From Rugalucina vietnamica (lineage: Eukaryota; Mollusca; Bivalvia; Lucinida; Lucinidae), in the NCBI GenBank assembly GCA_964017185.1, contig OZ024877.1, positions 3,822,006 to 3,886,005 of the forward strand: 64,000 nucleotides of DNA, written 5' to 3'. The notes under the pieces were generated by a model, which was not told the origin of the DNA, did no database searches, and saw only the letters and a program-made list of their open reading frames with translations. Below are positions 12,130 to 63,475 of this stretch, one piece after another (position 1 is the first letter of the stretch; every line of letters starts with the position of its first letter). The position numbers and the translations under genes were made by a program.

Positions 12130-12315
12130 TTATTTCTTGAATAGTGCTGATGTGTGTTGGTGAGTTCTTTGATGGCTGACTAGGCCAATTCTGGCTCTAA
12201 ACTGTCGGTTGCAAGTAGAGCAAGTCAATGTCATAGAGTCTGAATGGTGGCACATTTGTTTTGGCTTTGCGCTCTCTTCGCTTTCTTTCAGCTTCACAGA
12301 TTCTCTTCTTTTCAT
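12130..12315 (-). pseudogene. Frameshifted C-terminal C2H2 zinc finger of the LINE ORF
   Basis: In the frame next to the LINE ORF lies TCSTCNRQFRARIGLVSHQR followed by TH: Cys-x2-Cys-x12-His-x3-His. LINE proteins of this group normally end with such a finger. The main frame instead ends FRLYDIDLLYLQPTV. One indel near 12240 therefore cuts the finger off the polyprotein. Confidence 0.75.
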
Positions 12316-15300
12316 AAAGAGCTGCTCCTTTGTTGATGAGACCTCGCCACTTTGATCGCTCCTGTGCAGTCTGTTCCCAGGACTCCATTGGTATTTCGAA
12401 ATCCTTCAGAGAGGCTTTGAGGGTGTCTTTGTAGCGTTTCTTCTGGCCACCTTGAGAGCGCTTTCCCTCCTGTAGTTCTCCATAGAAAACTTTCTTTGGA
12501 AGTCGCGCATCAGGCATTCTTATAACATGGCCAGTCCATCTTAGCTGTGCTAGCTTTAAGACTGTATGCATGCTTTGCATCCCTGCTTTCGTCAGGACCT
12601 CTGTGTCTGGAATCTTGTCCTGCCACTTGATTTTTAACAACTTTCTCAAACAGCTTAAGTGGAAATGGTTAAGTCTCTTTGCATGGCGTTGGTATACTGT
12701 CCAGGTCTCACATGCATACAAGAGGGTTGGCAGCACCACAGCCTTGTAGACTTTCAGCTTGGTGTCAAGCTTGATTCCATTTCGCTCCCAGACATTTGCA
12801 CGGAGTCGTCCGAATGCCACACTAGCCTTTGCAATTCTGGCAGTGATCTCATCATCAATATGCACTGCTCTGGAGAGAGTGCTTCCCAGGTAGGTGAACT
12901 TGTCAACAACTTTCAGTTTTTGCCCATTCACAGTGATGGTTGGTTCAATATATGGCTTTCCGGGCGCTGGTTGGTGTACAACCTCTGTCTTTTTTGTGCT
13001 GATTGTGAGATCATAGTTATCACATGACTGTGAGACTTGATCCATGGCTCTTTGCATTTTTGCCTCTGTGCTGGCATTCTTATCCATATCATCTGCATAG
13101 AGGAGCTCATATAGCACATCAGTCTGGACCTTAGTTTTGGCTTGCAACCTTCTGAGGTTGAATATGTTGCCATCAAAACGGTACCTGATTGGAAAACCAG
13201 TGTCACTGTCCTGAAAAGCATCCATAAGCATGGCAGAAAACATCATGCTGAACAGTGTTGGTGCCAGAACACAGCCTTGTTTGACCCCATTTGTTACTTC
13301 AAATGGTTCAGAGAACTCTCCATCATTTTGCACACGTGCCTGCATGCCATCATGAAACTGCCGCACCATTGCTGTGAATCTGGGTGGACAGCCAAACTTG
13401 GCCATGATTTTCCAGAGTCCATCACGACTAACAGTGTCAAAAGCTTTGGTGAGGTCAACAAACGTCATGTATAGATCTACATTCTGTTCTTGGCATTTCT
13501 CCTGAAGCTGTCTTGCTGTGAAGATCATGTCTATTGTCCCTCTGTCTTTTCTGAATCCACATTGACTTTCTGGGATAAGTCCCGTCTGATCAAGATGAAC
13601 ATTCAGACGATTCAACAGAATTTTTGCAAGTATCTTCCCAGCAATTGATAGGAGGGAGATGCCTCTGTGATTGTCACAGACTTGAGGATTTCCTTTCCGC
13701 TTGTATAGGTGGATTATGGATGCATCCTTAAATTCTTGTGGGATAGCCTCCTTTCTCCACATACAGTGAAACAACTCTGTCAGTTTCTCTGCCATGGGTA
13801 GCCCCCCAGCCTTGTAAACTTCGGCAGGAATTGCATCTGCACCTGGGGCTTTGCCAGATGATAGTTGTTGAACTGCTTTTCTTGTTTCCGTAACGGTAGG
13901 AAATTCATCTAACAGAACATTGCACTCTATCTGTGGAAGTCTGTCGATTGCATCCTCATTGATGCTTGATGGTCGATTAAGCACACTATTGAAGTGTTCT
14001 GCCCACCTTTCCAAGATAGCTTCTTTATCTGTGAGAAGAGTGTTACCATCTGCACTGAGCAATGTGGTGGCTCCAGAACTCTTTGGACCATAAATGGTTT
14101 TCAGTGCATCATGAAATTTCTTCATGTCCTTTCTATCCGCAAAAGACTGAATTTCTTCTGTTTTCTTCCTCAGCCAGGAATCTTGCATGTCCCTAAGCTT
14201 GGTCTGGACTGTCTTACAAATGTTGCTGTAGGCTGCTTTCTTTGATACTGAGCTAGTATCATCTTGATGTGCCTTGTGCAATCGGTGCTTTTCTTCAAGA
14301 AGCCTCTGAATTTCGTCATCGTTCTCATCAAACCAGTCTTGATGTTTGCGAGATGGATGGCCTAAGGTGCTTGCAGCTGAAGAAAGAACTGTTTTATGGA
14401 AAACTGTCCAGTTTTCTTCGGGGTTCTCTGAACTGAGATTCATTGCATCCAGTTGGTTGCAAATGTCTGTTAAGAAATCTTGTCTCATGCTGTCTTTATT
14501 CAGCTTTGAGACATCCAGTCTCTTAGGAGCTTTCTTGCCTTGAGGTCGCCTCACAGGCTGTATTCTTAGGTTGAGTTTGCTGACAACCAGTCTATGATCT
14601 GTCCAACAGTCTGCACCACACATAGTCTTTGTCACTTTAACATCCTGCCTGTCTGTTCTCCGCACTATGACATAGTCTATGAGATGCCAGTGTTTGGAAC
14701 GGGGATGCATCCAGGATGTTTTGTTCCTATTAGGTAGACGGAAGACTGTGTTGGTGATTAGAAGGTCATGTTCAGCACACTTCCTGAGAAGCAAGAGACC
14801 ATTGCTGTTGCACTTTCCAACCCCTTCTGGACCTATGACTCCTTCCCAGGTCTGGTGGTCTGTACCCACTCTGGCATTAAAGTCGCCAAGAAGGATAAGC
14901 TTGTCTGTGCGGGGTGTTGCAGAAATAACATTGTCTAGGTCATCATAGAACTTGTCCTTGACCTCATCTGGATTGGTCATTGTGGGTGCATAAGCACTGA
15001 CAATAGTTGCATGTTTATTGCCTGACAGAGGAAGTCTCAATGTCATTAGACGGTCATTAATACCTTTTGGCAATCCTGACAGCTTACCAACAAGTTCTGT
15101 TTTGATGGCAAAGCCAACTCCTGCATCACGCCTCTCTTCACTTTTGCGTCCACTCCAGAAGAAGGTGTATCCAGCACCAACTTCTTTGATCTCCCCAACA
15201 TCTGCGAACCGAGTCTCACTCAATGCAGCTATCTGTATATCATACCTCCCAAGTTCTCTGCCCACAAGGGCCGTTCTACGCTGTGGTCTATCTGACCCAG

Positions 15301-15406
15301 CATTGTCCATTAAAGTACGCACATTCCATGCGCCAATCCGTAAGGGGATTACTCTAGCTTTTTTCTTTGTATTTCGACCGCTTAAGGGGATCCCCGCTGA
15401 TCGCGG
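12197..15406 (-). CDS. LINE ORF2: AP endonuclease and reverse transcriptase
   Basis: Polyprotein for target-primed reverse transcription. The frame is open from just after a TAA at 15407. It has no ATG at its head but reads IGAWNVRTLMDN, the usual start of the endonuclease domain, so the true start is upstream or eroded. Numbering from the GTG codon at 15322: catalytic Glu in LSETRF at about 36, GDFNARVG at 146-153, then DYVIV and DHRLV of the exonuclease-endonuclease-phosphatase fold. RT motifs follow: LYKRKGNPQVCDNHRGISLL, QCGFRKDRGTIDM, FVDLTKAFDTV, GVKQGCVLAPTLF and YADD at 742-745. The C-terminal part has RWTGHVIRMPDARLPKKVFY, common to this LINE group. The frame ends early after a frameshift near 12240. 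The clade (RTE- or CR1-related) is not certain. Transposition proficiency is doubtful because of the lost C-terminus. Confidence 0.9.
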   Translation of the reverse strand, partial: PRSAGIPLSGRNTKKKARVIPLRIGAWNVRTLMDNAGSDRPQRRTALVGRELGRYDIQIAALSETRFADVGEIKEVGAGYTFFWSGRKSEERRDAGVGFAIKTELVGKLSGLPKGINDRLMTLRLPLSGNKHATIVSAYAPTMTNPDEVKDKFYDDLDNVISATPRTDKLILLGDFNARVGTDHQTWEGVIGPEGVGKCNSNGLLLLRKCAEHDLLITNTVFRLPNRNKTSWMHPRSKHWHLIDYVIVRRTDRQDVKVTKTMCGADCWTDHRLVVSKLNLRIQPVRRPQGKKAPKRLDVSKLNKDSMRQDFLTDICNQLDAMNLSSENPEENWTVFHKTVLSSAASTLGHPSRKHQDWFDENDDEIQRLLEEKHRLHKAHQDDTSSVSKKAAYSNICKTVQTKLRDMQDSWLRKKTEEIQSFADRKDMKKFHDALKTIYGPKSSGATTLLSADGNTLLTDKEAILERWAEHFNSVLNRPSSINEDAIDRLPQIECNVLLDEFPTVTETRKAVQQLSSGKAPGADAIPAEVYKAGGLPMAEKLTELFHCMWRKEAIPQEFKDASIIHLYKRKGNPQVCDNHRGISLLSIAGKILAKILLNRLNVHLDQTGLIPESQCGFRKDRGTIDMIFTARQLQEKCQEQNVDLYMTFVDLTKAFDTVSRDGLWKIMAKFGCPPRFTAMVRQFHDGMQARVQNDGEFSEPFEVTNGVKQGCVLAPTLFSMMFSAMLMDAFQDSDTGFPIRYRFDGNIFNLRRLQAKTKVQTDVLYELLYADDMDKNASTEAKMQRAMDQVSQSCDNYDLTISTKKTEVVHQPAPGKPYIEPTITVNGQKLKVVDKFTYLGSTLSRAVHIDDEITARIAKASVAFGRLRANVWERNGIKLDTKLKVYKAVVLPTLLYACETWTVYQRHAKRLNHFHLSCLRKLLKIKWQDKIPDTEVLTKAGMQSMHTVLKLAQLRWTGHVIRMPDARLPKKVFYGELQEGKRSQGGQKKRYKDTLKASLKDFEIPMESWEQTAQERSKWRGLINKGAALYEKKRICEAERKRRERKAKTNVPPFRLYDIDLLYLQPTV

Positions 15407-29320: not shown

Positions 29321-29575
29321 ATATCAAAAGAACAAATGCATATGTGATGTGCTCATTAACATAATACATGTATTTATGTTTATTTTTGTCATTCAGTTTC
29401 TTTATAAATTTACATCTGTTCATCATTATCATGGCCAAGTCCATGGTCAGATTACAGTTTCCTATAAAATGTCAGATGTAAGTTCTCATTGTTCCATAGG
29501 CTGGATCATGCATACCTGTAAGCCAGCGGCTATGAAATATAACAATTGTATCTAGTCAGTTGTTCATTATTGTCA
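29321..29575. other. No gene seen
   Basis: No supported feature. Confidence 0.4.
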
Positions 29576-31690
29576 TATCAATCATTTGATACCAATTTCA
29601 GCTCTCTAGGACTTTTGGTTGCTGAGATATAACGTTTCCGTTGGTATACCCCCTCTATATTTCTATGCTTTGTATCTGATATTTTAAGTTATCATCAACA
29701 TTGAAACAAAGATAGTTGAAATATTCATTAATCTTATCCCTTGGTTATAGAACATTATCATTTCAATCATTTGATGCCAATTTCAGCTCTCTAGGACATT
29801 TGGTTGCCGAATTATAACATTTTTGTTGGTATACCCCCTCCACGTTTCTGTGATTTTTCTCTAATATTTAAAGTTTTCATCAATATTCGAAAACCAAGTA
29901 AGTCAGATTATTTGTGTGTCTTAGCACATGACTATAGAACATTATCCTAGCAATCATTTGAAAGCAATTTCAGCTCTCTGGAGCAATTGGTCACTGAGAT
30001 ATTAGCACTTTTATTGGTATACCACCTTCGTTTGCCAGTGATTTTTCTCTTATATCTTAAGTTTTCTTAAATATTTGAGCAAGAAGAAAGTCAGCTTTTT
30101 TATATATATTATTACATGGTTATAGAATATTGTTATAGCAATTATTTGATACCAATTTCAGCTCTCTATGGCTTTTGGTTGCTGAGATATATACGTTTCT
30201 ATTGGTATAACCCTTGTATTTTTCTGAGATTTTTATCTAATATTTAAAGTTTTCATCAATATTCGAACACCAAGAAGGTAGTATTTTTTATTTGTCTTAT
30301 CACATGAACATAGAACATTATTATAGCAATCATTTGAAACTAATTTCAGCTCTCTAAAGCTTTTGGCCACTGAGATATTTTCAACTTAATTGGTATATCC
30401 CCTTCGTTTGCCAGTGATTTTTCTCTTATATCTTAAGTTTTCTTAAATATTGGAGCTACAAGACAGTCAGCTTATTTATATCTAAATTTTAATACATGGT
30501 TATTGAATATAGTCATAGCAATCGGTTTGATACCAATTTCAGCTCTCTATGGCTTTTGGTTGCTGAGATATATACGTTTCCATTGGTATTCCACCTTAAT
30601 TTTTTCTGAGATTTTTATCTTATATTTAAAGTTCTCATCAATATTCCAACAACAAGAAGGTGGTATTATTTATGTATCTTATCACATGACTATAATTATA
30701 TTATAGCAATCATTTGAAACCAATTTCAGCTCTCTTGAGCTTTTGGTCACTGAGATATTTTCAATTTTATTGGTATACCCTCTTTGTTTGCCAATGATTT
30801 TTCTCCTGTATCTAAAGTTTTCTTAAATATTGGAGCAAGAAGAAAGTCAGCTTATTTATATATCTTAATACATGGTTATAGAACATAGTCATAGCAATCG
30901 TTTGATACCAATGTTCTCTATGGCTTTTGGTTGCTGAGATGTAAACATTTCCATAGGTATACCCCATCATTTTCTGTGATTTTTCTCTAATATTTTAAGT
31001 TTTCATCAATATGCGAACAGCACGAAAGTCTGATTATTTATGTATTATATTTTGTGGTTGTCATAGCAATTATTTGTTACCAATTTCAGTTCTCTATGGC
31101 TTTTTGTTGCTAAGCTATAAACGTTTATGTAGGTATACCCCTCCATTATTCAGTGATTTTTTCTAATATTGAAAGTTCTCATCAATATTTGAACACCAAA
31201 AAGGTCAATTTATGCCTGCATTTTATCACAATATTATAGAACATTATCATAACAATCATTTGATATAAATTTCAGCTCTCTAGAATTTTTGGTAGCTGGA
31301 CTATCAGCAATGTTGTTGGTATACCCCCTTCATTTATCTGTTATTTTTCTCTAATATCTAGAGTTATCTTTAATGTTTGAGCATCAAGATAGCCAGCTCG
31401 TTTATATATCTTATTATGTGGTTATAGAACATTTTCATAGCAATAACTTGATACCTATTTAAGCTCTCTAGATCTTTTGATTGCTGAGATATAAGCAATT
31501 GTGCTGGTCTACTCCATTTTTATGTGATTTTTTTTTCTAATATATAAAGTTTTCATTGATGTTCAAACACCAGGAAGTCAATTCGATTTTTATATCATAT
31601 TACATGGTTATAGAGCATTGTCAAAACAATCATTTGATACATATTTCTGCTCTCTAGGTCTATCAGTAACCAAGGTACATGCGGTGATAT
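29576..31690 (+). repeat. Degenerate tandem array I, about twelve units of 185 bp
   Basis: The block CCAATTTCAGCTCTCTAGG recurs near 29588, 29775, 29965, 30155, 30340, 30535, 30720, 30910, 31080, 31270, 31457 and 31645. Each is preceded by a TATAGAACATTATCATAGCA-like block and followed by TTTTGGTTGCTGAGATATA and TTGGTATACCCCCTC. Units are diverged, no unit encodes a conserved frame, and no known satellite is recognised. Confidence 0.9.
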
Positions 31691-32301
31691 AGGCATACCA
31701 CATTACTTCCTCTGCTTATTAGGGGTGGGAATGAACACCTTGTTATTTTATGTGACACAAATGGGCATTAAAGTGATCCTCTGACCAAACTGGCACCCAT
31801 GAGCATTTGTTCTGAGGGTGCAAGGTACGCCCTATAGATAACCCACCCCAAACACTTCAAATGGCAATAGATTTTCCTTTTGTAAATCTTGATTTTCATC
31901 ATTTTCATTAATATTCATGACGTCTAATTTGTTGTTTGCGCGTTAAGTACATGTATGCAAGTATACATGCTTAGAGACTGTAGTAAGCCTACTTTGATCA
32001 GATCACATTGTTATTTTTATCAATTTCTTTGCGAGGTGCGCATAGAATGGTGTACATTGAAATACTAAGTCAGTACCTTGCTGTATAATAAAGGTACACC
32101 AACAAGTGTATCACCGATGATTCAATGCTTTTGTTTGCCAAATCGTATAATTGCCGACATTAAGGAATTGATCTGGCATTAAGGTAATTGTGGAAGACCA
32201 TCATGCATATCGAAGTGATTCAAAGGCAGTAGAATTTCTAAGCTCTGATCAGTATCATTATAGTGTACACTAATGAAATACTAGTATGATATTGATATGA
32301 G
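31691..32301. other. No gene seen
   Basis: No supported feature. Confidence 0.4.
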
Positions 32302-33163
32302 AAGGTACAAGTAGGCAAAGATCAGGAAAAGGCGCAATCAGAAAGAGATTCCCGCTCCAAAAACCGAGGTGGGAAAAACCAAACTAACAATCAGGCACTT
32401 ATACCATGAAACATATCGTAAGCCGAATGAGCAGCTATTTTCCCAATAGGTGGTCACTCAGTTACCTTAACTTAATAAAAAATATGAAAACATACATAAG
32501 GCGCCAACAGCACAAAAAAAAATTTAACACCAAGACATAAAACAAAAAACCACCACATCAGTATCGCCTTGGAACGATCAGTAACACAAAGTTACTGGCG
32601 GGCTTAAACCGGTTTTACAGGATCCTAACCTCACCCTCAGCTTCTGCAGTGGTTCATAACATTTAGTAAGTTCTTCGGTCCTCGTGGTGAATCTCTAACT
32701 AGTCAATGAATCATCAAGAACAAACAAATAAATCATGATAAACATCCTGATGAATCAAAAACAAGGACTCACAGATTGAGTAAGCTGCCCGACGATTGAG
32801 ATCCCTGGGCGCCGAATAACCTACTAACTCCGGAGCAAAAGAAAAACACCAGTTGGACCCCTGTGGGCCAAGCAAGGAGCTCCGGCCCCAACCAACTAAG
32901 ATGAATAGCTTTAAGTCGGGGCCATCATAGAGTCTGACGCCCGACACACCGGCGTGCAATTGAAGAAGGTAGCATAGTTATCAACCATGATTGGGTTAAA
33001 AACTAAGCATGCAGACTGTCGCATAACATTCAAGTTATAACCTGTACGTCTGTAACGTGTTATGACTTTTCTAAACTGAAAAAAAAATCATTAATTCCTA
33101 TAAGTTTCTTAAATTTGTAAACTAAGTCACCATAAAATTCAGGTTCCGAAAGGCCCTCACTTA
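32302..33163 (-). mobile_element. PLE copy, 5'-truncated, first of a head-to-tail pair
   Basis: Complete 3' region (GGTACAAGTAGGCAAAGATC to GGGGCCATCATAGAGTC) plus the last ~70 codons of the RT ORF, up to CCTCACTTAAAA. It joins directly to the next copy's tail (33164), so two truncated copies lie head-to-tail with no spacer. Confidence 0.85.
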
Positions 33164-34080
33164 AAAAAGTACAAGTAGGCAAAGATCAGGAAAAGGCGCA
33201 ATCAGAAAAAGACTCCCACTCCCAAAACCAAGGTGGGAAAAAACCAAACTAACAATCAGGTACTTATACCATGAAAACATTTCGTAAGCCGAATGAGCAG
33301 CTATTTTCCCAATAGGTGGCCACTCAGTTACCTTAACTTAACTAAAAATATGCAAACACACATAAGGCGCCAACAGCACAAAAATATCTCAAACACCAAG
33401 ACATAAAACAAAAAGAACCACCACAGAAGTATCGACTTGGAACGATCAGTAACACAAAGTTACTGGCGGGTTTAAATCGATTTTACACGGCCGTAACCTC
33501 ACCCTCAGCTTCTGCAGTGGTTCATAACATTTAGTTAGTTCTTCGGTCCTCGTGGTGAATCTCTAACTAGTAAATGAATCATCAAGAACAAACAAATAAA
33601 TCATGATAAACATCCTGATGAATCAAACACCAGGACTCACAGATTCAGTAAGCTGCCCGACGATGGAGATCCCTGAGCGCCAAATAACTTACTAACTCCG
33701 GAGCTAAAGAAAAACATCAGTTGGACCCCGGTGGGCCAAGCAACAGACATGAAGCTCTGGCCCCAACCAACTAAAACCGTCTTTAATCCAATATTATATT
33801 TGGAAATCAATTCATAGTGTCTACGATAAAATTTAGAAAAGGTTTTTCGAAGTTTCTGATACCGATAGCCCTGTTGGAGAAGTTTTGCCGTTAAACATTT
33901 ATTTCGAGCGTTGAAGTCTGTAACATGATTGCAGACTCTAGCAAACCTAATAAGTTGCGAAATGTAAACACCATAAGAAGGACGACGAGGAATGTCACCA
34001 TCCAAAAAAGGAAAATTTAGTATATGAAAATCAAAGTCGTCGCGCTTATCATAAATTTTAGAAGAAACAAGCCAAGTTTT
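33164..34080 (-). mobile_element. PLE copy, 5'-truncated with internal deletion, second of a tandem pair
   Basis: Tail from AAAGTACAAGTAGGCAAAGA. The ORF part reads VSSKIYDKRDDFDFHILNFP to ISKYNIGLKT and then jumps into sequence that is normally 3' untranslated, deleting about 300 bp that includes the end of the ORF. Homology stops near 34080. Confidence 0.85.
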
Positions 34081-34830: not shown

Positions 34831-37415
34831 TGCTTCTATAACAAAATCGTTCGACATCGTCTATACCTACGTACTTCCAAAATTCAGAACCTCCTATTAT
34901 TTGTTACAAATATAATAAACCAATCAGCAATACTATTTTTAATTTCAATAAACTTGTTTCTGATCTTGATATCTATGCTAATACTCTAAGTTTTGAGATT
35001 GTAAAGATTCAAAATATGTTTATCAACCAGCCGGACATATAGTTACTGGAAATTTAAAAATAATTTCGGATTCTAGAATTCGCATAATTGTTTCTAAAGG
35101 TCCGAAATATAGATTCCCTTCCTACATTAATTTCGACAAATGTAGAGAGGAGATTGCATCTGCATTGAATGATTTCGGTAATCGATGGTGTAAACGAGCG
35201 GGTGTTGAGGATAATGCTCTTAAAGAATGGAAAAGAAGTGTCTTCACTATCGTGGATAAACGTTTTATTCACAAAATACTAATGGTTTACCTCCTAAACC
35301 CAAATCGTCATTTAGGCATTTGAAGCGGGGTATCCAAGAATTTCATAGAAAGTATGTCTTGGTTCCGGCAGACAAAGCCGCAAACAATGTTGTTGTGGTT
35401 TGAAGGCTTCACTACGTTAACACCTTAAAACAGGAGCTTGATGGTACCAGGAACTTATCTGGGGACAGATACTGATGAAATGTCTGTAGTAAATGCTCAC
35501 TTAAACAATTTACCTGTTAAGTTTTCTGTTTGTGTCAATGAAGGCCAAGACAAACTTCCTATGATGTATTGGTTACCTAAGCTTCACAAAAGACCATACA
35601 AAGCTAGATTTATTGCAAATTCTAGCTCTTGTACTACTACTGAACTTTCTAAATTATTAACTTTCTGTCTTACTGCTATCAAACCTCATGTTATAAGATA
35701 CTGTGAGACAGTGTATGACACTTCAAATAAAAATTGGTTTTGGTCAATAATAAATTCTGGCGAGGTGCTCAGTAAATTCAAGTGTAGAGGGTTCCGTGCG
35801 ACGAGCTTGTCCACATATGATTTTTCTACTTTGTATACAACATTACCACATAGTCTAATTAAAGAAAAACTTCTGGATTTTATAGAGTGGACCTTCAAAA
35901 GGGCACTAAAAAACTATGGTTCACTTTATGTGGCATGTAATGACAGAAAGGCTTTTTTCACTTCCTCTGACCAAAGTCGGTATACTCTTTGGTCATGTCA
36001 GAATGTGTTCGACGCTTTATCCTATCTCCTGGATAATATTTATATTAGAATTTAGAATTGGGACAAAGTTAAACAGACAAATTGTTGGAATTCCGATGGG
36101 TACAAATTGCGCACCTCTCGAAGCTGATTTATTTTTATACTTCTACGAAAGAGATTTCATGGATTCTCTCAACCATGATAATCAAGCTGATGTTGTCGAG
36201 GCTTTTAATTCCAATTCTAGGCCATTATCTCAGATACCGAAGCCCCCTTTTTAGATCTACATCTTTCTGTTTCAAATGGATTTGTTTCTTCTAAAATTTA
36301 TGATAAGCGCGATGACTTTGATTTTCATATAGTAAATTTTCCGTTTTTGGATGGTGACGTTCCTCGTCGTGCTTCTTATGGTGTATACATTTCGCAACTT
36401 ATTAGGTTTGCTAGAGTCTGCAATCATGTTACAGACTTCAACGCTCGAAATAAATGTTTAACGGCCACACTTTTCCAACAGGGCTATCGGTACCATAAAC
36501 TTCGAAAAAACTTTTCTAAATTTTATCGTAGACACTATGGATTGATTTCCAAATATAATGTTGGGAACCTGAATTTTATGGTGTCTTGGTTTACAAATTT
36601 AAGAAACTTTTAGGAAGTAATGATTTTTCTTTTCAGTTCAGAAAAATCATAACACGTTACAGACGTATAGGTTATAACTTGAATGTTATACGACAGTCTG
36701 TATGCTTAGTTTTTAACCCAATCATGGTTGATAACTATGCTGCCTTCTTTAATTGCACGCCGGTTGGTCGGGCGTCAGACTCTATGATGGCCCCGACTTA
36801 AAGCTATTCATTTTAGTTGGTTGGGACCGGATCTTCTTGTCTGTTGCTTGGCCCACCGGGGTCCAACTGGTGTTTTTCTTTTGCTCCGGAGTTAGTAGGT
36901 TATTCGGCGCCCAGGGATCTCCATCGTCGGACAGCTTACTCAATCTGTGAGTCCTGGTTTTTGATTCATCAGGATGTTTATCGTGATTTATTTGTTTGTT
37001 CTTGATGATTCATTGACTAGTAAGTGATTCACCACGAGGACCGAAGAACTAACTACATGTTATAAACCACTGCAGAAGCTGAGGGTGAGGTTATGGTCAT
37101 GTAAAACCGGTTTAAGCCCGCCAGTAACTTTATGTTACTGATCGTTTCAAGGCGATACTTCTGTGGTGGTTCTTTTTATGTCTTGGTGTTTAAATTGTTT
37201 TAGCTGTAGGCGCCTTATGTATGTTTTCATATTTTTAGTTATGTTTTGGTAACTGAGTGGCCACCTATTGGGAAAATAGCTGCTCATTCGTCTTACGATA
37301 TGTTTTCATGGTATAAGTACCTGATTGTTAGTTTGGTTTTTTTCCCACCTCGGTTTTTGGAGTGGGAATCTTTTTCTGATTGCGCCTTTTCCTGATCTTT
37401 GCCTACTTGTACCTT
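34830..37415 (+). mobile_element. Longest PLE copy, plus strand, with candidate selenocysteine TGA codons
   Basis: Runs from decayed N-proximal coding sequence (PTYFQNSEPPII near 34880) through the whole RT ORF in shifted frames and a full 3' region to CTGATCTTTGCCTACTTGTA at 37412. The 5' limit is uncertain. Compared with the copy at 38.4-40.65 kb it has several frameshifts, an 8-base duplication near 36050, an 88-base deletion removing YLDD, and a ~30-base deletion near 36565. It is therefore dead, but it preserves more 5' sequence than any other copy here. Confidence 0.85.
34880..36746 (+). pseudogene. Decayed PLE (Naiad-like) reverse transcriptase ORF
   Basis: Fragments in order: PPIICYKYNKPISNTIFNFN, then after a one-base shift SKF-TGA-DCKDSKYVYQ and PAGHIVTGNLKIISD (34988-35065), KGPKYRFPSYINFDKCREEI, KRGIQEFHRKYVLVPADKAA-NNVVVV-TGA-RLHYVNTLKQEL (TGA at 35401), YWLPKLHKRPYKARFIANSS, YDFSTLYTTLPHSLIKEKLL, GIPMGTNCAPLEADLFLY, then loss of the catalytic YLDD, KIYDKRDDFDFHIVNFPFLD and CTPVGRASDSMMAPT. 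The segment with Cx-C followed by GHxVTG is the short linker I associate with N-terminal-endonuclease PLEs. The first Cys is TGA here. The second TGA replaces a Cys that is TGT in the sister copy. No GIY-YIG endonuclease is visible. Confidence 0.75.
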
Positions 37416-38418: not shown

Positions 38419-40650
38419 TAAAAAGGTACAAGTAGGCAAAGATCAGGAAAAGGCGCAATCAGAAAAAGATTCCCACTCCAAAAACCGAGGTGGGAAAAAA
38501 CCAAACTAACAATCAGGTACTTATACCATGAAACATATCGTAAGCCGAATGAGCAGCTATTTTCCCAATAGGTGGCCACTCAGTTACCTTAACTTAACTA
38601 AAAATATGAAAACATACATAAGGCGCCAACAGCACAAAAAAATTTATACACCAAGACATAAAACAAAAAGAACCACCACAGAAGTATCGACTTGGAACGA
38701 TCAGTAACACAAAGTTACTGGCGGGCTTAAACCGGTTTTACATGGCCATAACCTCACCCTCAGCTTCTGCGGTGGTTCATAACATTTAGTTAGTTATTTG
38801 GTCCTCGTAGTGAATCTCTAACTAGTCAATGAATCATCAAGAACAAACAAATAAATCATGATAAACATCCTGATGAATCAAAAACCAGGACTCACAGACT
38901 GAGTAAGCTGCCCGACGATGGAGATCCCTGGGCGCCAAATAACCTACTAACTCCGGAGCAAAAGAAAAACACCAGTTGGACCCCGGTGGGCCAAGCAACA
39001 GACAAGAAGCTCCGGCCCCAACCAACTAAAATGAATAGCTTTATGTCGGGGCCATCATAGAGTCTGACGCCCGACCCACCGGCGTGCAATTAAAGAAGGC
39101 AGCATAGTTATCAACCATGATTGGGTTAAAAACTAAGCATGCAGACTGTCGCATAACATTTAAGTTATAACCTATACGTCTGTAACGTGTTATGATTTTT
39201 CTGAACTGAAAAGAAAAATCATTAATTCCTTTAAGTTTCTTAAATTTGTAAACCAAGTCACCATAAAATTCAGGTTCCGAAAGACCCTCACTTAAAAGCG
39301 ACTTTAACCCAACATTATATTTGGAAATCAATTCAAAGTGTCTACGATAAAATTTAGAAAATGTTTTTCGAAGTTTATGATACCGATAGCCCTGTTGGAG
39401 AAGTTTTGCCGTTAAACATTTATTTCGAGCGTTGAAGTCTGTAACATGATTGCAGACTCTAGCAAACCTAATAAGTTGCGAAATGTATACACCATAAGAA
39501 GCACGACGAGGAACGTCACCATCCAAAAAAGGAAAATTTACTATATCAAAATCAAAGTCATCGCGCTTATCATAAATTTTAGAAGAAACAAATCCATTTG
39601 CAACAGAAAGATGTAGATCTAAAAAGGGGGCTTCAGTATCTGTGATATTGGCTTTGTTCAACTGAAGTTCAGGTGGATAAATTTGATTGACCATACCTTC
39701 AAAATAAGGGTTGTCAATGTTCAAAAGGTCATCGAGGTACCTAGATGTGGAATTAAAAGCCTCGATAACATCAGCTTGATTATCATGGTTAAGAGAATCC
39801 ATGAAATCTCTTTCGTAGCAGTATAAAAATAAATCAGCTACGAGAGGTGCGCAATTTGTACCCATCGGAATTCCAACAATTTGTCTGTATAACTTGGTCC
39901 CAAATCTAATATAAATATTATCAAGGAGATAGGATAAGGCATCGCATACATTCTGACATGACCAAAGTGTATACCGACTTTGGTCAGAGGAAGTGAAAAA
40001 AGCCTTTCTGTCATTACATGCCAAATAAAGTGAACCATAGTTTTTTAATGCCCTTTTGAAGGTCCACTCTATCAAATCCAGAAGTTTTTCTTTTATTAGA
40101 TTATGTGGTAATGTTGTATACAGAGTAGAAAAATCATATGTGGACAAGCTTGTCGCACGGAACCCTCTACACTTAAACCTACTGAGCACCTCACCAGAAT
40201 TTTTAATTGACCAAAACCAATTTTTATTTGAAGTTTCATACACTGTCTCACAGTATCTTATAACATGAGATTTGATAGCAGTAAGACAGGAAGTTAATAA
40301 TTTAGAAAGTTCAGTGGTAGTACAAGAGCTAGAATTTGCAATAAATCTAGCTTTGTATGGTCTTTTGTGAAGCTTAGGTAACCAATACATCGTAGGAAGT
40401 TTGTCTTGGCCTTCATTGACACAAACAGAAAACTTAACAGGTAAATCGTTTAAGTGGGCATTAACTACAGACACCTCATCAGTATCTGTCTCCAGATAAG
40501 CCCTGGTACCATCAAGCTCCTGTTTTAAGGTATTAACGTAGTGAAGCCTACAAACGACAACAACATTGTTTGCGGCTTTATCTGCCGGAACCAAGACATA
40601 CTTTCTATGAAATTCTTGGATACCCTGCTTCAAATGCCTAAATGACGATT
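38419..40650 (-). mobile_element. Best-preserved PLE copy, 5'-truncated
   Basis: Tail from AAAAAGGTACAAGTAGGCAA, about 620 bp of 3' region, then an uninterrupted RT frame to CGTCATTTAGGCATTTG at about 40650. Beyond that point the next sequence is a second tail in opposite orientation (40653-40998). The element is thus bracketed by inverted copies of its own 3' region, a PLE hallmark. Confidence 0.9.
39041..40633 (-). CDS. PLE reverse transcriptase, 530-residue 5'-truncated ORF
   Basis: Reverse transcriptase of a Penelope-like retroelement; PLE RTs are relatives of telomerase RT. The frame begins at a non-ATG codon because the copy is 5'-truncated; the natural start is missing. Motifs: VPADKAANNVVVVC (Cys28), YWLPKLHKRPYKARF at 83-97, YDFSTLYTTLPH (catalytic Asp, about 167), IVGIPMGTNCAPLVADLF at 252-269, YLDD at 299-302 (the remaining catalytic aspartates), PFLDLHLS, and a long C-terminal region with KIYDKRDDFDFDIVNFPFLD and FNARNKCLTAKLLQQGYRYH. 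It ends CTPVGRASDSMMAPT with TAA. No C-terminal GIY-YIG endonuclease follows, which excludes canonical Penelope/Poseidon order and fits elements with the endonuclease at the N terminus. Frame integrity suggests recent activity of the family. Confidence 0.9.
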   Translation of the reverse strand: MKQGIQEFHRKYVLVPADKAANNVVVVCRLHYVNTLKQELDGTRAYLETDTDEVSVVNAHLNDLPVKFSVCVNEGQDKLPTMYWLPKLHKRPYKARFIANSSSCTTTELSKLLTSCLTAIKSHVIRYCETVYETSNKNWFWSIKNSGEVLSRFKCRGFRATSLSTYDFSTLYTTLPHNLIKEKLLDLIEWTFKRALKNYGSLYLACNDRKAFFTSSDQSRYTLWSCQNVCDALSYLLDNIYIRFGTKLYRQIVGIPMGTNCAPLVADLFLYCYERDFMDSLNHDNQADVIEAFNSTSRYLDDLLNIDNPYFEGMVNQIYPPELQLNKANITDTEAPFLDLHLSVANGFVSSKIYDKRDDFDFDIVNFPFLDGDVPRRASYGVYISQLIRFARVCNHVTDFNARNKCLTAKLLQQGYRYHKLRKTFSKFYRRHFELISKYNVGLKSLLSEGLSEPEFYGDLVYKFKKLKGINDFSFQFRKIITRYRRIGYNLNVMRQSACLVFNPIMVDNYAAFFNCTPVGRASDSMMAPT

Positions 40651-40652
40651 TA

Positions 40653-41080: not shown

Positions 41081-41445
41081 CAGGTGTATACATGGCAGCC
41101 ATCTTGGTCATGTGACCTTGACCATTGATATAAACTTTCATTCCCCCTTCCTTATAAAGTTTGGCTTTGCTTGGCCAAGCAGTTTCAGAGAAGAAGATTT
41201 TTGCATATAATGTTCATATAGATATATTTAGCAGGGGAAGGGGCAGACGACCCCCTGGGGACAAAATGTTTTCATAGACATAAATATTCTGTCAATTTGC
41301 ATACTCCCAGCAAGTTTCCTCCCATTTAAATAAATTTACTAATTTTCCCTATTCAAATACATTGGCGACCTAAGTTGACCTTGCCGTAAAATAAGTCAAG
41401 GTCATCCAAGGGCTATGATTTATATAACTTTTATAGAGGGCTACT
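41081..41445 (+). repeat. Partial unit of the 450-bp repeat
   Basis: GGCAGCCATCTTGGTCATGT, TTTGGCTTTGCTTGGCCAAG and AAGTTGACCTTGCCGTAAAA match units at 27.6-29.3 kb. It joins directly to repeat F. Confidence 0.7.
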
Positions 41446-42480
41446 GATGAGGGTTCATTACCCGAAATTGCGCAGTATAGTCCAAACTATCTCTCTTTGA
41501 ATATTTTTACAGCTTCCAAGAGATCAAACTTTTATATTTTATTTGCGATAACTGCAGCAGGGGTTGTGCCGTGTGGCGGCCCTAAAAATTCTCCCCGTAC
41601 ATCATCTATAGTGCAGATTATATTTTTCTTTCGGTCCTTTGAGATCAATAAAGATATTCAGAGTGTTCAAAACACTTACGTTTATAAACATACTTCTTAG
41701 CAATGTTTAATCGTTTGACCCCGTTTAGGAATGTGTCTTTGATTTAGACATCTCGTATAAATTCTCGAAATTGCAACACAATAGTCTGGCGTTCGTTGCC
41801 AGTTTAAAAACGGCTATTGATGAGGGTTCATTACCCGAAATTTCGCAATATAGTCCATACTATCTCTCTTTGAATATTTTACTGCATCCAACTGATCAAA
41901 CCTTTATATTGTATTTGCTATTACTGCAGCTGGTGTTGTGCCGTGTGGCGGCCCTCAAAGTCTCCCCTTACATCATCCATAGTGCAGATTATATTTTTCT
42001 TTCGGTCCTTTGAGACCAATAAAGATGAGTGCTTAAAACACTTACGTTTATAAACATACTTCTTAACAATGTTTAAATCGTTTGACCCCGATATGGAATG
42101 TGTCTTTGATTTAGAAATCGTATGAATTCTCGAAATTGCAGCACAATAGTCTGGCGTTCATTACCAGTTTAAAAAGAGCTACTGATGAGGGTTCATTACC
42201 CGAAATTGCGCGATATAGTCTATACTATCTCTCTTTGAATATTTTACTGCTCACAAAGGATAAAACTTTTATATTGTATCTGCTATTACTGCAGCTGGTG
42301 TTGTACCGTGTGGCGGCCCTCAAAGTCTCCCCTTACATCATCCATAGTGCAGATTATATTTTTCTTTCGGTCCTTTGAGATCAATAAAGATGAGTGCTTA
42401 AAACACTTACGTTTATATACTATCTCTCTTTGAATATTTTACTGCTCACAAAGTATCAAACCTTTATATTGTATTCATTA
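41446..42480 (+). repeat. Repeat F tandem array, about 365-bp units
   Basis: GATGAGGGTTCATTACCCGA recurs at 41449, 41819 and 42185. CTGCAGCTGGTGTTGTGCCG, GTGTGGCGGCCCT and AGTGCAGATTATATTTTTCT recur in each unit. Units are well conserved, and the array ends just upstream of the heat-shock gene. The two 80-codon frames (41771-42013, 42136-42378) are the same repeat translated twice. Confidence 0.85.
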
Positions 42481-46828: not shown

Positions 46829-46992
46829 TATAGGAATGAATTTTATTTTTGTTGATTTTATCGATGTGTAAACTCAGGCGAATCACTCACAAACTAAATA
46901 AAGCCCGAAGGGCTTTATGAAAAAGTTTGTGAGTGGTTCGCCTGAGTTTACACATCCATAAAATCAACAAAAATAATAATTCATTCCTTATA
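46829..46992. mobile_element. Long hairpin element
   Basis: An almost perfect palindrome of about 160 bp: AGGAATGAATTTTATTTTTG, TTGATTTTATCGATGTGTAA, ACTCAGGCGAATCACTCACA against their complements, with the turn at GCCCGAAGGGC. It abuts the TIR of the next element. Confidence 0.85.
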
Positions 46993-50999: not shown

Positions 51000-52412
51000 C
51001 AATGCCCATGTATGAAAAAATCAAGTCTTCTTCTTTAGAAGCGCTGCTTCGACAAGAGAATTGCCATGAAACCTTATGCCTTGTGAACCATTGCAGAAGA
51101 TGAGGGTGAGGTTAGGCGCCTGTAAATCCGGCTAAGCACCCCCTCCCCCCAAACACACACAAACCAGTAATTTTATATTACTGATCGTTCCAAGGCGATA
51201 CTTTCGTTGTTGTTCTGATAGTTTTATGTTTTGGAGTCGAATGATTGTGCTGTTTACAGTTACGCTGAGTGGCCGCCTTTTGGAAAATAGATTTTCTTAG
51301 TACTATAAGTACATGTACCTAACTGAAATTTTTTTCGACCCTCATCTTTGTAGTGGTCATTTCTTTCTGATTGTGCCATTTCCTGATCATTGTCTACTTT
51401 TCGTATACCCAAGTGCGCACAACGTTTTTGCTGAGTATACGATCTGAGATTATATAGTTATGTAGTTGAGGCCTGTACTCTCACTGGTAAAAGGGAAATA
51501 ATGTCAATTTGCCATTTTTCTCGACTCATTCCAGTTTATGTCCGCTGTCATAGCATTACCCCACGTAATCCTGGTGTCGTATTTGTGACACAACTGTGGC
51601 TTTTCTGTTGTAAAATGGTCCAGAAATTGAAAAATCCAGGCGGAAAAGAAAGGAGGACACGAAAAAATACGAAAAAAAGATGTACAAACACGCTTGAAGA
51701 GAAAGATTACTAGTTCTTTCCTAACAAGCTAGCCATCCAACTAGCATCAGCCAAAAACAAAGGTGGTGAGAACAACAGAAGCAGGCAGAATAAATAGAAA
51801 GGTACAAGTAGGCAAAGATCAGGAAAAGGCGCAATCAGAAAAAGATTCCCACTCCAAAAACCGAGGTGGGAAAAAAACAAACTAACAGTCAGGTACTTAT
51901 ACCATGAAAACATTTCGTAAGCCGAATGAGCAGCTATTTTCCCAATAGGTGGCCACTCAGTTACCTTAACTTAACTAAAAATATGAAAACATACATAAGG
52001 CGCCAACAGCACAAAAATATTTTAAACACCAAGACATAAAACAAAAAGAACCACCACAGAAGTATCGACTTGGAACGATCAGTAACACAAAGTTACTGGC
52101 GGGTTTAAATCGATTTTACATGGCCATAACCTCACCCTCAGCTTCTGCAGTGGTTCATAACATTTAGTTAGTTCTTCGGTCCTCGTGGTGAATCTCTAAC
52201 TAGTCAATGAATCATCAAGAACAAACAAATAAATCATGATAAACATCCTGATGAATCAAAAACCAGGACTCACAGATTGAGTAAGCTGCCCGACGATGGA
52301 GATCCCTGGGCGCCGAACCCATAGCAGTTTGTGAATTTTATGTACATGTACATGTATTGCGTTTGTTTTGACAATGGAAGGGAAGCAATGCAAATTTTGT
52401 ATCCCGCTATTA
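51000..52412 (+). repeat. Local duplication, unit 2, interrupted by a PLE
   Basis: Same sequence as unit 1 with few differences. It is split at 51798/52315 by a 517-bp PLE tail. Confidence 0.9.
51799..52314 (-). mobile_element. PLE tail with known empty site
   Basis: AAGGTACAAGTAGGCAAAGA to AGATCCCTGGGCGCC, a 5'-truncated tail of 517 bp. Unit 1 shows the uninterrupted target AATAGAACCCATAG. Junctions leave at most a 2-3 bp duplication (GAA). Confidence 0.9.
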
Positions 52413-53206: not shown

Positions 53207-54706
53207 ATGCTGGATATATACACTTTAGTAATAGTTTTGATCGTATTTTGGATATCGTTTCACATTGTTCGGAATCTCGCGTCATCTTCGGGTAAATCCT
53301 ACCCACCGACAGTCAGATGGGCGCTCCCCGTTCTAGGTCACCTGCCGTATTTCGGATCGAATCCTCCGATAACGTTCAAGGAATGGCGAAACCAATATGG
53401 AGATATTTACACTATACGCATAGGAAGTTTGAATACAGTAGTTGTGAACGGTCGCCGTCATATCCAGGAAGCGATGTTGAGAAAAGGAGACGAATTATCC
53501 GACAGACCGAGAACCTTTACAAAAGATGCCGTCAAGAAAGTTTATGGCGGGATAGAGAGTTTTATTCTCCATCCATTCAACCAGTCGTACTTACAAACGC
53601 GTAAAATTGTGATAAATGTTCTACACAAAGTAACGCATACAAACCTAACTGAAACCCAAGAACTTATTTTAGAGGAAACAGTGTTGCTACTTCAGGAATT
53701 TTCCCGTTTGAAAAGCAAACCTCAGTGCGTTCATCAAGCTATACGAGTTGCTGTCAACAGAATCATATACCAAATTCTCTTCGGTCGAGGCAAATGTTCA
53801 AGAGACGATACTCGTCTTCAAAATATCGTTGAGAGCGCTAACGAAATCGTAGAATTAAATGGTGGCGGAAACCCTTTCGATGTCATGCCTTGGCTTCAGT
53901 ATTTAATGCCGTGGAGAACTAGACGGTTCCTACGAATAATGGGAACAGCTGTCGGTATCGTACGCCAAGAACTAGAAGAACACTTGAAAGACTTTGATAA
54001 ATCTCACATCAAAGATGTAACAGACATGCTACTGGCAACTGAGCTTCCCAAAGGTACAACTGACGAAACCGTATTAACAAAAGATGGACTTTTACTGCCA
54101 GTTTTAAACGAACTGATGCAAGGAGGGCAAGAAACCGTCTCAGCGACTCTGGAGTGGCTAATACTACACATGGCAGCCTATCCGGATGTTCAGGAAAGGA
54201 TACATACAGAAATAGACGAAACTGTTGGAGCGGATCGGAGCATTGACATTATGGATAAACCACACTTATGTTACACAGAGGCTACAATATACGAAACCAT
54301 GCGCATCTCGAATGCGGACCCATTCGCTTTCCCACACAGTGCTTTAAAGAATACAAAACTTGCTGGATTTGACATTGACAAGGGTACTATGATTTTCATA
54401 AATCAACATTCCGCTAACATGGATGAGAAGGTTTGGAATGATCCTGAAGTATTCAGACCTCAGCGTCTTCTTACTGATCAAAAGGTGCTAGATCATGACA
54501 ACTGTAATAATATACTTCTATTTGGCTTAGGTAGGAGACGGTGCGTTGGAGAACAGTTGGCTCAACTGATGTTGTTTATTGTGTTTTCGAATCTAATGCA
54601 AAGGTTCACATTTCGTAAGGCGGCAGGCGGGATTATCGACCTTACACCTATACCAGGACTCGTATACAAGCCTAAGTTTACAGAAATCATCATAACTGAA
54701 AGATAG
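53207..54706 (+). CDS. Cytochrome P450, clan-2 type, single-exon gene
   Basis: Haem-thiolate monooxygenase, predicted microsomal. 499 residues, the usual length. An N-terminal membrane anchor (about residues 3-25, LVIVLIVFWISFHIV) is followed by a proline-rich hinge (SYPPTVRWALPVLGHLPYFG). The I helix has GGQETVS at 306-312 in place of the common A/G-G-x-D/E-T, the ExxR pair is Glu363/Arg366 (ETMR), the PERF-like segment reads FRPQR, and the haem loop FGLGRRRCVGE carries the axial Cys446. The start has a hydrophobic anchor at the expected distance. Overall sequence (YGDIYTIRIGS, LSDRPRTF) suggests the CYP1/CYP2/CYP17 branch; substrate unknown. All expected motifs are present with no stop or shift. 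Lack of introns is unusual for vertebrate clan-2 genes and suggests a retrocopy or an intronless invertebrate subfamily. Repeat K flanks it in opposite orientations. Confidence 0.95.
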   Translation: MLDIYTLVIVLIVFWISFHIVRNLASSSGKSYPPTVRWALPVLGHLPYFGSNPPITFKEWRNQYGDIYTIRIGSLNTVVVNGRRHIQEAMLRKGDELSDRPRTFTKDAVKKVYGGIESFILHPFNQSYLQTRKIVINVLHKVTHTNLTETQELILEETVLLLQEFSRLKSKPQCVHQAIRVAVNRIIYQILFGRGKCSRDDTRLQNIVESANEIVELNGGGNPFDVMPWLQYLMPWRTRRFLRIMGTAVGIVRQELEEHLKDFDKSHIKDVTDMLLATELPKGTTDETVLTKDGLLLPVLNELMQGGQETVSATLEWLILHMAAYPDVQERIHTEIDETVGADRSIDIMDKPHLCYTEATIYETMRISNADPFAFPHSALKNTKLAGFDIDKGTMIFINQHSANMDEKVWNDPEVFRPQRLLTDQKVLDHDNCNNILLFGLGRRRCVGEQLAQLMLFIVFSNLMQRFTFRKAAGGIIDLTPIPGLVYKPKFTEIIITER

Positions 54707-58231: not shown

Positions 58232-59602
58232 AAAAAGGTACAAGTAGGCAAAGATCAGGAAAAGGCGCAATCAGAAAAAGATTCCCACTCCAAAAACCGA
58301 GGTGGGAAAAAACCAAACTAACAATCAGGTACTTATACCATGAAACATATCGTAAGCCGAATGAGCAGCTATTTTCCCAATAGGTGGCCACTCAGTTACC
58401 TTAACTTAACTAAAAATATGAAAACACACATAAGGCGCCAACAGCACAAAAAATTTTAAACACCAAGACATAAAACAAAACGAACCACTACAGAAGTATC
58501 GACTTGGAACGATCAGTAACACAAAGTTACCGGCGGGCTTAAACCGGTTTTACAGGTACCTAACCTCACCCTCAGCTTCTGCAGAGGTTCACAACATTTA
58601 GTTAGTTCTTCGGTCCTCGTGGTGAATCTCTAACTAGTCAATGAATCATCAAGAACAAACAAATAAATCATGATAAACATCCTGATGAATCAAAAACCAG
58701 GACTCACAGATTGAGTAAGCTGCCCGACGATGGAGATCCCTGGGCGCCGAATAACCTACTAACTCCGGAGCAAAAGAAAAACACCAGTTGGACCCCGGTG
58801 GGCCAAGCAACAGACAAGAAGCTCCGGCCCCAACCAACTAAAATGAATAGCTTTAAGTCGGGGCCATCATAGAGTCTGACGCCCGACCCACCGGCGTGCA
58901 ATTAAAGAAGGCAGCATAGTTATCAACCATGATTGGGTTAAAAACTAAGCATGCAGACTGTCGCATAACATTCAAGTTATAACCTATACGTCTGTAACGT
59001 GATATGATTTTTCCGAACTGAAGAGAAAAATCATTTATTCCTTTAAGTTTCTTTAATTTGTAAACCAAGTCACCATAAAATTCAGGTTCCGAAAGGCCCT
59101 CACTTAAAAGTGTCTTTAACCCAACATTATATTTGGAAATCAATTCATAGTGTCTACGATAAAATTTAGAAAAGGTTTTTCGAAGTTTATGATACCGATA
59201 GCCCTGTTGGAGAAGTTTTGCCGTTAAACATTTATTTCGAGCGTTGAAGTCTGTAACATGATTGCAGACTCTAGCAAACCTAATAAGTTGCGAAATGTAT
59301 ACACCATAAGAAGCACGACGAGGAACGTCACCATCCAAAAAAGGAAAATTTACTATATCAAAATCAAAGTCATCGCGCTTATCATAAATTTTAGAAGAAA
59401 CAAATCCATTTGCAACAGAAAGATGTAGATCTAAAAAGGGGGCTTCGGTATCTGAGATATTAGCTTTGTTCAACTGAAGTTCAGGTGGATAAATTTGATT
59501 GACCATACCTTCAAAATAAGGGTTGTCAATGTTCAAAAGGTCATCGAGGTACCTAGATGTGGAATTAAAAGCCTCGATAACATCAGCTTGATTATCATGG
59601 TA
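58232..59602 (-). mobile_element. PLE copy, 5'-truncated, with RT C-terminal half
   Basis: Full 3' region (AAAAAGGTACAAGTAGGCAA onward) plus about 250 codons of ORF. Homology stops at GATTATCATGG near 59602. Confidence 0.9.
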
Positions 59603-59614
59603 TAGTTTACTCAA
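58853..59614 (-). pseudogene. PLE reverse transcriptase, C-terminal 249 residues
   Basis: Starts in flanking sequence, then matches the copy at 39041 from DNQADVIEAFNSTSRYLDDL to SDSMMAPT with few changes. It retains YLDD and everything downstream but lacks fingers and most of the palm, so it is non-functional. High identity to the 39-kb copy indicates recent insertion. Confidence 0.88.
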
Positions 59615-60811: not shown

Positions 60812-60981
60812 CCGATAACTGTCCATCAACGATAACTGTCCACCATGGACACTTATCGTTGCAGCCGCAACGATAACTGTCCACTGGACAACTATCGTTG
60901 ATTTTTCAACGATAACTGTCTACCATGGACACTTATCGTTACTGTAGTTGATATGACCTGCAGTGTCAACGATAACTGTCC
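60812..60981. repeat. Cluster of CAACGATAACTGTCC hairpins
   Basis: Five occurrences of CGATAACTGTCC within 170 bp. Three of them form hairpins with an inverted partner GGACA(A/C)(T/A)ATCGTTG: 60828-60860 (AACGATAACTGTCCA / TGGACACTTATCGTT), 60868-60900 and 60908-60940. A poly-A run of about 40 bp follows (60989-61031). The same core occurs in reverse at 63602-63936. Confidence 0.85.
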
Positions 60982-62055: not shown

Positions 62056-63175
62056 GTTTTTCTTTTATACCTTGAAACCCAGTTGATATAAAAACATACT
62101 TCTTTCAGATAATGATTGAGTATGACCAGACCTTTGACCCAAAAGTAGCCATAGGTCAAAATGACCTAATTTCATGGTCCAGTGATTTTGCCTTTTATCT
62201 TGGCACTCAGTTGGTATATGAACTTGCTTCTTACAGATAATGAGCGAGTATGACTAGACCTTTGACCTGAAATTAGTTTTAGGTCAGTGTGACCTAATTT
62301 TACGGTCCAGTGATTTTGCCTCGTATCTTGACACTCAGTTGGAATAGGAACATGCTTCTTTCAGATAATGAGTGAGTATGACCAGACCTTTGACCCGAAA
62401 GAAGTCATAGGTCACAATGACCTAATTTCATGGTCCAGTGATTTTGCATTATATCCTGACACTCAGTTGGTATATGAAGATGCTTCTTTCAGATGATGAG
62501 TCAGTATGACCAAACCTTTGATCGGAAAGAAGTCATAGGTCACAGAGACCTAATATCATGGTCTATTGATTTTGTATTATAGCTTGAAATTCAGATGGTA
62601 AAGGAACATGCTTCTTTCAGATAATGAGTAAGTATGACCAGATATTTAACCCAAAATAGTCATTGCTCACAGTGACCTTATTTCATGGTCCAGTTATTTT
62701 GTCATAGCTTTACACACAGTTGGTATATGAACATGCTGCCTTGAGATAGTGAAAGAGTATTACCAGATCTTTGACATGAAAGTTACTATAGATCACAGTG
62801 ACCTAAGTTCATGGTCCAGTGATTTTGCCATATAGCTTGACACTCAGTTAGTATGTAAGAATGCTTCTTTCAGATAATGAGTGACCATACCTTTGGCCCC
62901 AAAGTCCTAGGTTTTTGTGACCTAATTTCATGGTCCTGTGATATTGCCTTATTACTTGATGCTCAGGTAGTACATGTACATGTATGGCCAGACTTTTGAC
63001 CCGAAATTAATCATTGGCAATCTATGGTTCAGTGATTTTGCCTTCTATATCTAACAGCAAGAGATGTGTGAACAAGATGCTATTTGATTGTCAATTATTA
63101 CTAGCCCACATTTGATCCCAAAATAAATATGGGTCACTGTGACCTATATTTCATCGTTCAGTGATTTTGTTTTAT
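62056..63175 (+). repeat. Tandem array with palindromic AGGTCA half-sites, about 125-bp units
   Basis: About eight units share CTCAGTTGGTATATGAACAT, GCTTCTTTCAGATAATGAGT, AGTATGACCAGACCTTTGAC and TCATGGTCCAGTGATTTTGC. Each contains a palindrome of the type AGGTCAnnnTGACCT: perfect at 62153-62167, 62281-62295 and 62409-62423; one mismatch at 62537-62551 and 62791-62805; GGGTCA variant at 63131-63145. That arrangement is the consensus estrogen-receptor element. Confidence 0.9.
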
Positions 63176-63250: not shown

Positions 63251-63475
63251 ATGGCCGTGTGGCTCGGCAGCTCAGGGGTTAGAGCACTCGCACGGTAAGC
63301 GCGGGATCCTGGGTTCGATTCCCAGTTGGGCCGTTCTTTTTCCTTTCCTTTGACATTTGGTGGCCAGTGTGGGTCCCTCCTCGGGCTGCGAACAGCAAAG
63401 GAACTGTCTCGTCAGTTTCCGACATGGTTCCGAGAAGACTCGGGAACGAATCTAATAAAGCAGGGGCAAAATGTA
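63251..63475 (+). mobile_element. tRNA-derived SINE
   Basis: Head 63258-63333 folds as a tRNA: GCTC/GAGC D stem, CTGGGTTCGATTCCCAG T arm with a perfect B box, A-box-like CAGCTCAGGGG, and a 7-bp acceptor stem with several G-U pairs. The anticodon loop ACGGTAA lacks the universal U33. The body (TTTGACATTTGGTGGCCAGT; GGTTCCGAGAAGACTCGGGA) follows to about 63475. SINE rather than a working tRNA gene. Confidence 0.75.

Follow-up and report, generated by a model that had tools for sequence, protein, structure and literature searches.

Copies of a retroelement in the window

The window, that is the whole stretch of 64,000 nucleotides of Rugalucina vietnamica DNA analysed here, harbours truncated copies of a retroelement on both strands (Table 1). 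The longest copy starts near residue 409 of a frame that has 1101 residues in intact copies elsewhere in the genome. It differs from the sister copy by 94 substitutions in 2103 aligned bases (46 transitions and 48 transversions), and among the aligned codons 28 changes are silent, 35 are replacements and one is a stop, the TGA. The third copy has no difference from one of the intact genomic copies, L072, over the 248 codons compared. Inverted 3' pieces adjoin copies at 38421/38423 and 40651/40655. No further copy spanning any of the four codons discussed below was found in the 200 kb beyond the window, and a 47%-identical endonuclease piece in this flanking DNA is too decayed for its Cys sites to be read.

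Table 1. Copies of the element in the window and their features; positions are counted from the first letter of the window.
Feature	Position	Strand	Basis or remark
Longest copy; 5'-truncated, frameshifted, with deletions	34842..37415	+	tblastn and blastn maps
TGA at first residue of the CxC linker (UxC), U3	34994..34996	+	codon context TTT-TGA-GAT-TGT
TGA at a family Cys (TGT) site	35401..35403	+	comparison with sister and genome copies
SECIS of longest copy	36776..36843	+	RF00031 37.4 bits (gathering 35), independent descriptor, fold z -2.7
Sister copy; 530-codon open RT frame, TGT at second site; 5'-truncated before CxC	38423..40651	-	
SECIS of sister copy	38999..39066	-	37.4 bits
Third copy; C-terminal part of frame and 3' region	58235..59614	-	
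SECIS of third copy	58811..58878	-	39.0 bits
Fourth copy; C-terminal end and 3' region	32297..33170	-	partial head-to-tail tandem with 33166-34070
SECIS of fourth copy	32867..32938	-	29.4 bits, under the gathering score; intact core but damaged outer stem

The initial annotation of this DNA had drawn attention to two TGA codons at cysteine positions of the longest copy, and both are where it placed them. The first is part of TTT-TGA-GAT-TGT (34991-35002) in the GHIVTGNLKII frame; the second, at 35401-35403, is opposite TGT at 40550-40552 of the minus-strand sister copy. The two sit in different frames of this frameshifted copy. Relative to all 39 relatives fetched from the genome, it lacks one base within 34985-35005, a few nucleotides upstream of the first TGA.

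Anatomy of the full-length element

The genome searched comprises 1.09 Gb in 47 contigs, and seven longer copies fetched from it (L072 to L078) served for reading the anatomy of the element. In three of these (L072, L073 and L075) one frame runs from stop to stop over 1101 residues and contains TGA exactly three times and neither TAA nor TAG. The TGA codons are found at residues 157 and 168 (U1 and U2, in the endonuclease) and at residue 461 (U3, in the linker), and the other two forward frames of L072 contain 46 and 149 stops. L074 is 5'-truncated and has the same three TGA, while L076, L077 and L078 are decayed or truncated and all keep the TGA at residue 461. L077 has two extra TGA, both at Arg codons, which look like plain decay. 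The two endonuclease TGA go beyond the initial annotation and belong to a part of the frame that is absent from the truncated window copies.

A single frame of up to 1101 residues would encode an N-terminal region, a GIY-YIG endonuclease, a UxC linker and a reverse transcriptase (RT). An N-terminal GIY-YIG domain had been anticipated in longer copies, and it was found there: the cut-out endonuclease stretches of L072 and L075, around U1 and U2, match PF01541 with 28.3 bits against a cut-off of 22.6, and in both frames the endonuclease is N-terminal to the RT. Scanning of the whole 1101-residue frames listed no GIY-YIG match at E up to 1. A GIY-YIG text pattern had no match within the window because its copies are truncated before the endonuclease. 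The region of the endonuclease with the two putative selenocysteines reads SDLD-U-KSMDLVYVLT-U, and by eye this U-x10-U is followed by several His; U1 and U2 may stand at the sites of the two Cys of the CCHH motif of endonucleases of Penelope-like elements (PLEs). Naiad elements have a CxC linker between endonuclease and RT. The three intact frames read KS-U-DC in the linker, which is UxC at residues 461-463, and U3 takes the position of the first Cys of the CxC. The RT motifs YDFSTLYTTLP, GIPMGTNCAPLVADLF and YLDDLL were recognised by eye; for the RT no Pfam, NCBIfam or PDB match of weight was obtained.

The full unit measures 4,228 bp. In L072, L073 and L075 the SECIS of an upstream unit is located 4,228 bp away, and the units are therefore arranged head-to-tail in these three loci. 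Matches at places on contigs C1 and C5 are also spaced by 4,228 bp.

One family-wide and one private TGA

A 531-base query over both TGA sites of the longest copy gave 1763 first-look candidates, the best 40 of which were 95-100% identical to it, 39 along its full length and one along 529 bases. The 39 relatives fetched from outside the window are accordingly a best-scoring and non-random set, representing 14 distinct sequences. The first site was TGA in all 39. It was also TGA at 803 of 803 places genome-wide that carry an exact 31-base pattern allowing TGA, TGC or TGT at this site, a count that leaves aside copies with changed flanks, the window's own included; the 100 places listed were TGA throughout, and a version of the pattern allowing TGC or TGT only had no match in the genome. 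The first TGA is a codon of the family and not a mutation of the window copy, which bears out the proposal of a selenocysteine-type TGA in the CxC linker.

The second site behaves differently from the first. TGT was present in 38 of the 39 fetched relatives and TGA in a single one, L033. In a second sample of 20 copies, hand-picked so as to be spread over the 100 listed places and all on contigs C1 and C2, TGT was found in each of the 18 copies that could be aligned at this site (two could not). The second TGA is a private change of the window copy. A majority of TGA at both sites had been set beforehand as a check of the selenocysteine proposal, and it is seen at the first site and not at the second. 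With the codon usage of the sister frame, about 5.7% of random nonsense changes would be Cys-to-TGA changes, and two of two would occur with a frequency of about 0.3%. As only the first TGA is family-wide and the second is private, the argument that the two were unlikely to have arisen by decay was half right.

Random decay in its full form, which would make both TGA chance mutations of a defunct copy and the SECIS match described below a coincidence, is an extremely improbable explanation. It holds for the TGA at 35401 alone, given the prevalence of TGT among the fetched relatives and the alignable copies; for the first TGA it is ruled out by the fixation of this codon in both the fetched and the pattern-defined sets. 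It could also be imagined that selenocysteine is traded for cysteine within the family and that the second site represents a Sec/Cys polymorphism at the level of lineages rather than a private mutation. The one fetched relative with TGA at this site is the same locus as L078 (C14:42735400-42740900), where the TGT-to-TGA change at residue 599 corresponds to that at 35401, and L078 is a young copy, about 0.2-0.3% from L072 (about 0.3% at replacement sites), while the window copy is 3-6% from it, so that the same TGA occurs on different backgrounds. However, with the window copy included, TGA is found in only two of the 40 compared copies, and in none of the 18 alignable copies of the second sample, and we consider a polymorphism of this kind highly improbable.

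The endonuclease codons were assessed in the second sample, ten copies of which align there: U1 was TGA in ten of ten and U2 in nine of ten, the remaining copy having a gap. A search across the endonuclease codons yielded 798 candidates, and the best 40 were all 100% identical over 201 bases. With at least 40 copies identical over these 201 endonuclease bases, many copies must be very young. The family is apparently large and recently active, and its recent spread seems to have taken place with UGA as a sense codon; at least 803 places have the exact codon context of the linker.

A SECIS at the end of the frame

The initial annotation had found no SECIS by eye and had pointed to the 3' region as the place for a prediction. 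A SECIS is present there in the longest copy, at the very start of the 3' region and overlapping the end of the open reading frame. The Rfam model SECIS_1 (RF00031) scores above its gathering threshold of 35 bits in three window copies and below it in the fourth (Table 1), and these four are all the window copies that span the whole SECIS site. This recurrence speaks against a chance match in a dead copy, even with one of the four scores below gathering. All seven of the longer copies fetched from the genome have SECIS_1 at the frame end with 39.0 bits. Our own descriptor, consisting of AUGA, a helix of 9-12 bp, AA in the loop and GA opposite, selects exactly four places on both strands of the window, which are the same four SECIS; 40 simulated windows gave 0.125 such places on average and at most 1. 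The four stretches fold better than shuffled sequences (z from -2.3 to -4.4); for the long and the fourth copy, the structure of minimum energy deviates from that of a SECIS beyond the main helix.

In 16 aligned copies no variation is seen in the core AUGA or in the GA facing it. The SECIS as a whole is no more conserved than its 100-nt flanks, with 96.2% identity against 97.3% upstream and 96.3% downstream in 15 copies compared with L072 (L022, one of the 16 aligned copies, was left out here as it lies at a locus edge, and L076 was added), and conservation therefore adds no support.

The position of the SECIS relative to the stop codon is unusual. It starts 23 nt before the stop, covering seven codons and two bases of the eighth (SDSMMAPT), and the UAA stop is inside it, in the unpaired AA stretch. 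The SECIS is downstream of the UGA codons but not wholly in the 3' UTR, its first 23 nt being coding. The overlap is odd because a terminating ribosome must open the SECIS. A fowlpox virus GPX4-like selenoprotein has its SECIS inside the open reading frame, and this SECIS is reported in a review to work in mammalian cell lines (PMC6769590). As an in-frame SECIS is reported to work, the overlap lowers the typicality of the present one and not its function. The two cases are alike in that the SECIS reaches into coding sequence; they differ in that the fowlpox gene is a viral GPX with the SECIS within the frame while here a retroelement has it across the frame end and stop. A SECIS placed across a stop codon may be new.

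Replacement changes on both sides of the linker TGA

Compared with L072, two of the decayed or truncated copies show a deficit of replacement changes both before and after U3. Between U2 and U3, L076 has pS 0.066 and pN 0.018 (11 silent changes on 166 sites, 11 replacements on 611) and L077 has pS 0.072 and pN 0.020 (13 silent changes on 181 sites, 13 replacements on 665). After U3 the values are pS 0.034 and pN 0.010 for L076 and pS 0.048 and pN 0.012 for L077. The resulting pN/pS ratios, which are from small counts, are about 0.27 from U2 to U3 and 0.26-0.29 downstream of U3. For the window sister copy pS was 0.052 and pN 0.008 after U3. The deficit is weaker in the window long copy (pS 0.060, pN 0.031, pN/pS about 0.5), as expected because this copy is decayed. 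L073, L074, L075 and L078 are young copies with too few differences for selection to be judged. A deficit on both sides of U3 is what would be predicted for one protein read across the UGA codons, and it would be compatible also with separate internal starts.

The latter is of relevance to an alternative in which the TGA codons are ordinary stops, giving a short N-terminal product, with the RT translated from an internal start after U3 or supplied by other master copies. Such an arrangement could account for the intact sister copy with its open RT frame devoid of TGA, and selenocysteine insertion is itself a prediction. Yet no stop interrupts the 292 codons from U2 to U3, where the replacement rate is low in L076 and L077, three TGA and no TAA or TAG occur in 1101 codons, and the SECIS is found at the end of this same frame, all of which makes ordinary stops a very improbable reading. 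The copies in the window are very probably truncated members of a family of Penelope-like retrotransposons of the Naiad type whose protein would have three selenocysteines, their insertion at the UGA codons being predicted from sequence.

Host machinery and proposed mechanism

Two tRNA-Sec genes with anticodon TCA were identified in the genome, scoring 79 and 71.2 bits with RF01852 and both above gathering; 22 weaker matches below the cut-off were not counted. In the selenoprotein reading, the mRNA of the element would be translated through the N-terminal region, endonuclease, linker and RT, with selenocysteine inserted at U1, U2 and U3 by the host tRNA-Sec machinery as recruited by the element's own SECIS. 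Selenocysteine would then replace cysteine in the endonuclease and linker, at what appear to be sites of metal or redox type, and may alter the metal or redox chemistry there. The result would be a mobile element whose endonuclease and linker need selenium, which raises the question of why a retroelement swaps cysteine for selenocysteine. Gene finders will split such elements at three false stops.

We tentatively put forward, while regarding it as rather unlikely, that SECIS and stop codon constitute one overlapping device, making the element a selenium-gated retrotransposon with built-in negative feedback. If this were true, RNA structure would dictate the C-terminal residues and each terminating ribosome would open the SECIS; translation, and hence transposition, would be coupled to ribosome traffic and to the selenium supply of the host. 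A further question posed by the element is whether a stop-overlapping SECIS is functional and determines how frequently synthesis of the protein is completed.

Relation to known elements

Naiad PLEs with selenoprotein-coding members in clams and spiders have reportedly been described by Craig, Yushenova, Rodriguez and Arkhipova in 2021 (Mol Biol Evol 38:5005). Naiad elements likewise combine tandem units with an N-terminal GIY-YIG domain, a CxC linker upstream of the RT, several UGA codons in frame and a SECIS. The overlap of SECIS and stop codon may set the present element apart from this general plan. That we are dealing with a further example of a kind already known, the selenoprotein Naiad, is well supported, and the element may be one of the published Naiad families. 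The 2021 paper appears as a reference entry in PMC11167929, PMC12477816 and PMC12910113. Among the papers listed by the literature search, none was recognised as being on selenoprotein Penelope-like elements. In canonical Penelope/Poseidon elements, RT and GIY-YIG are joined in one protein, tandem copies form pseudo-LTRs and the endonuclease is C-terminal (PMC11167929). One protein with both domains and tandem copies are thus shared with the present element, whereas its endonuclease is N-terminal.

No protein relatives were found in the collections viral_contigs, genome_contigs, phages and plasmids. A degenerate pattern of RT motifs matched nothing in viral_contigs and a single contig in genome_contigs, JACCHT010000015.1, which is filed under a Bathymodiolus symbiont genome. 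A related RT piece is found at 3246-3585 on the minus strand of this contig (L001), 57% identical over 51 residues and 49% over 37, and the contig has no linker match and no SECIS. It is probably mussel DNA in a bacterial assembly. Three viral contigs retrieved with the linker pattern were judged by protein reading to be chance matches and were rejected; tblastn on the first of these gave a 10-residue match with E 0.005.

Other features of the window

Weak twister-P1 ribozyme matches were recorded at 33415-33478 and 52048-52111 on the minus strand (23.3 bits against a gathering threshold of 67.2), at corresponding positions in two copies of the 3' region of the element; they are perhaps chance matches or a decayed self-cleaving RNA. 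A 1041-residue open frame at 12197-15322 on the minus strand has a weak exonuclease-III match near its start (25 bits) and a match to an NCBIfam group II RT (65.8 bits), both below their cut-offs, and resembles a LINE-type element whose frame is open. Long hairpins at 46860-46959 on the plus strand and at 60827-60900 on both strands are below threshold as microRNA families and are probably, as a guess, inverted-repeat DNA transposons. Four tandem arrays were listed, three of which are located at 29569-31657, 41440-42417 and 62065-62982, with units of about 188, 365 and 128 bp, respectively. The window also contains a cytochrome P450 encoded by a single 499-residue open frame (53207-54706, plus strand; PF00067, 279.5 bits) and a tRNA-Tyr gene with anticodon GTA (63260-63334, plus strand).
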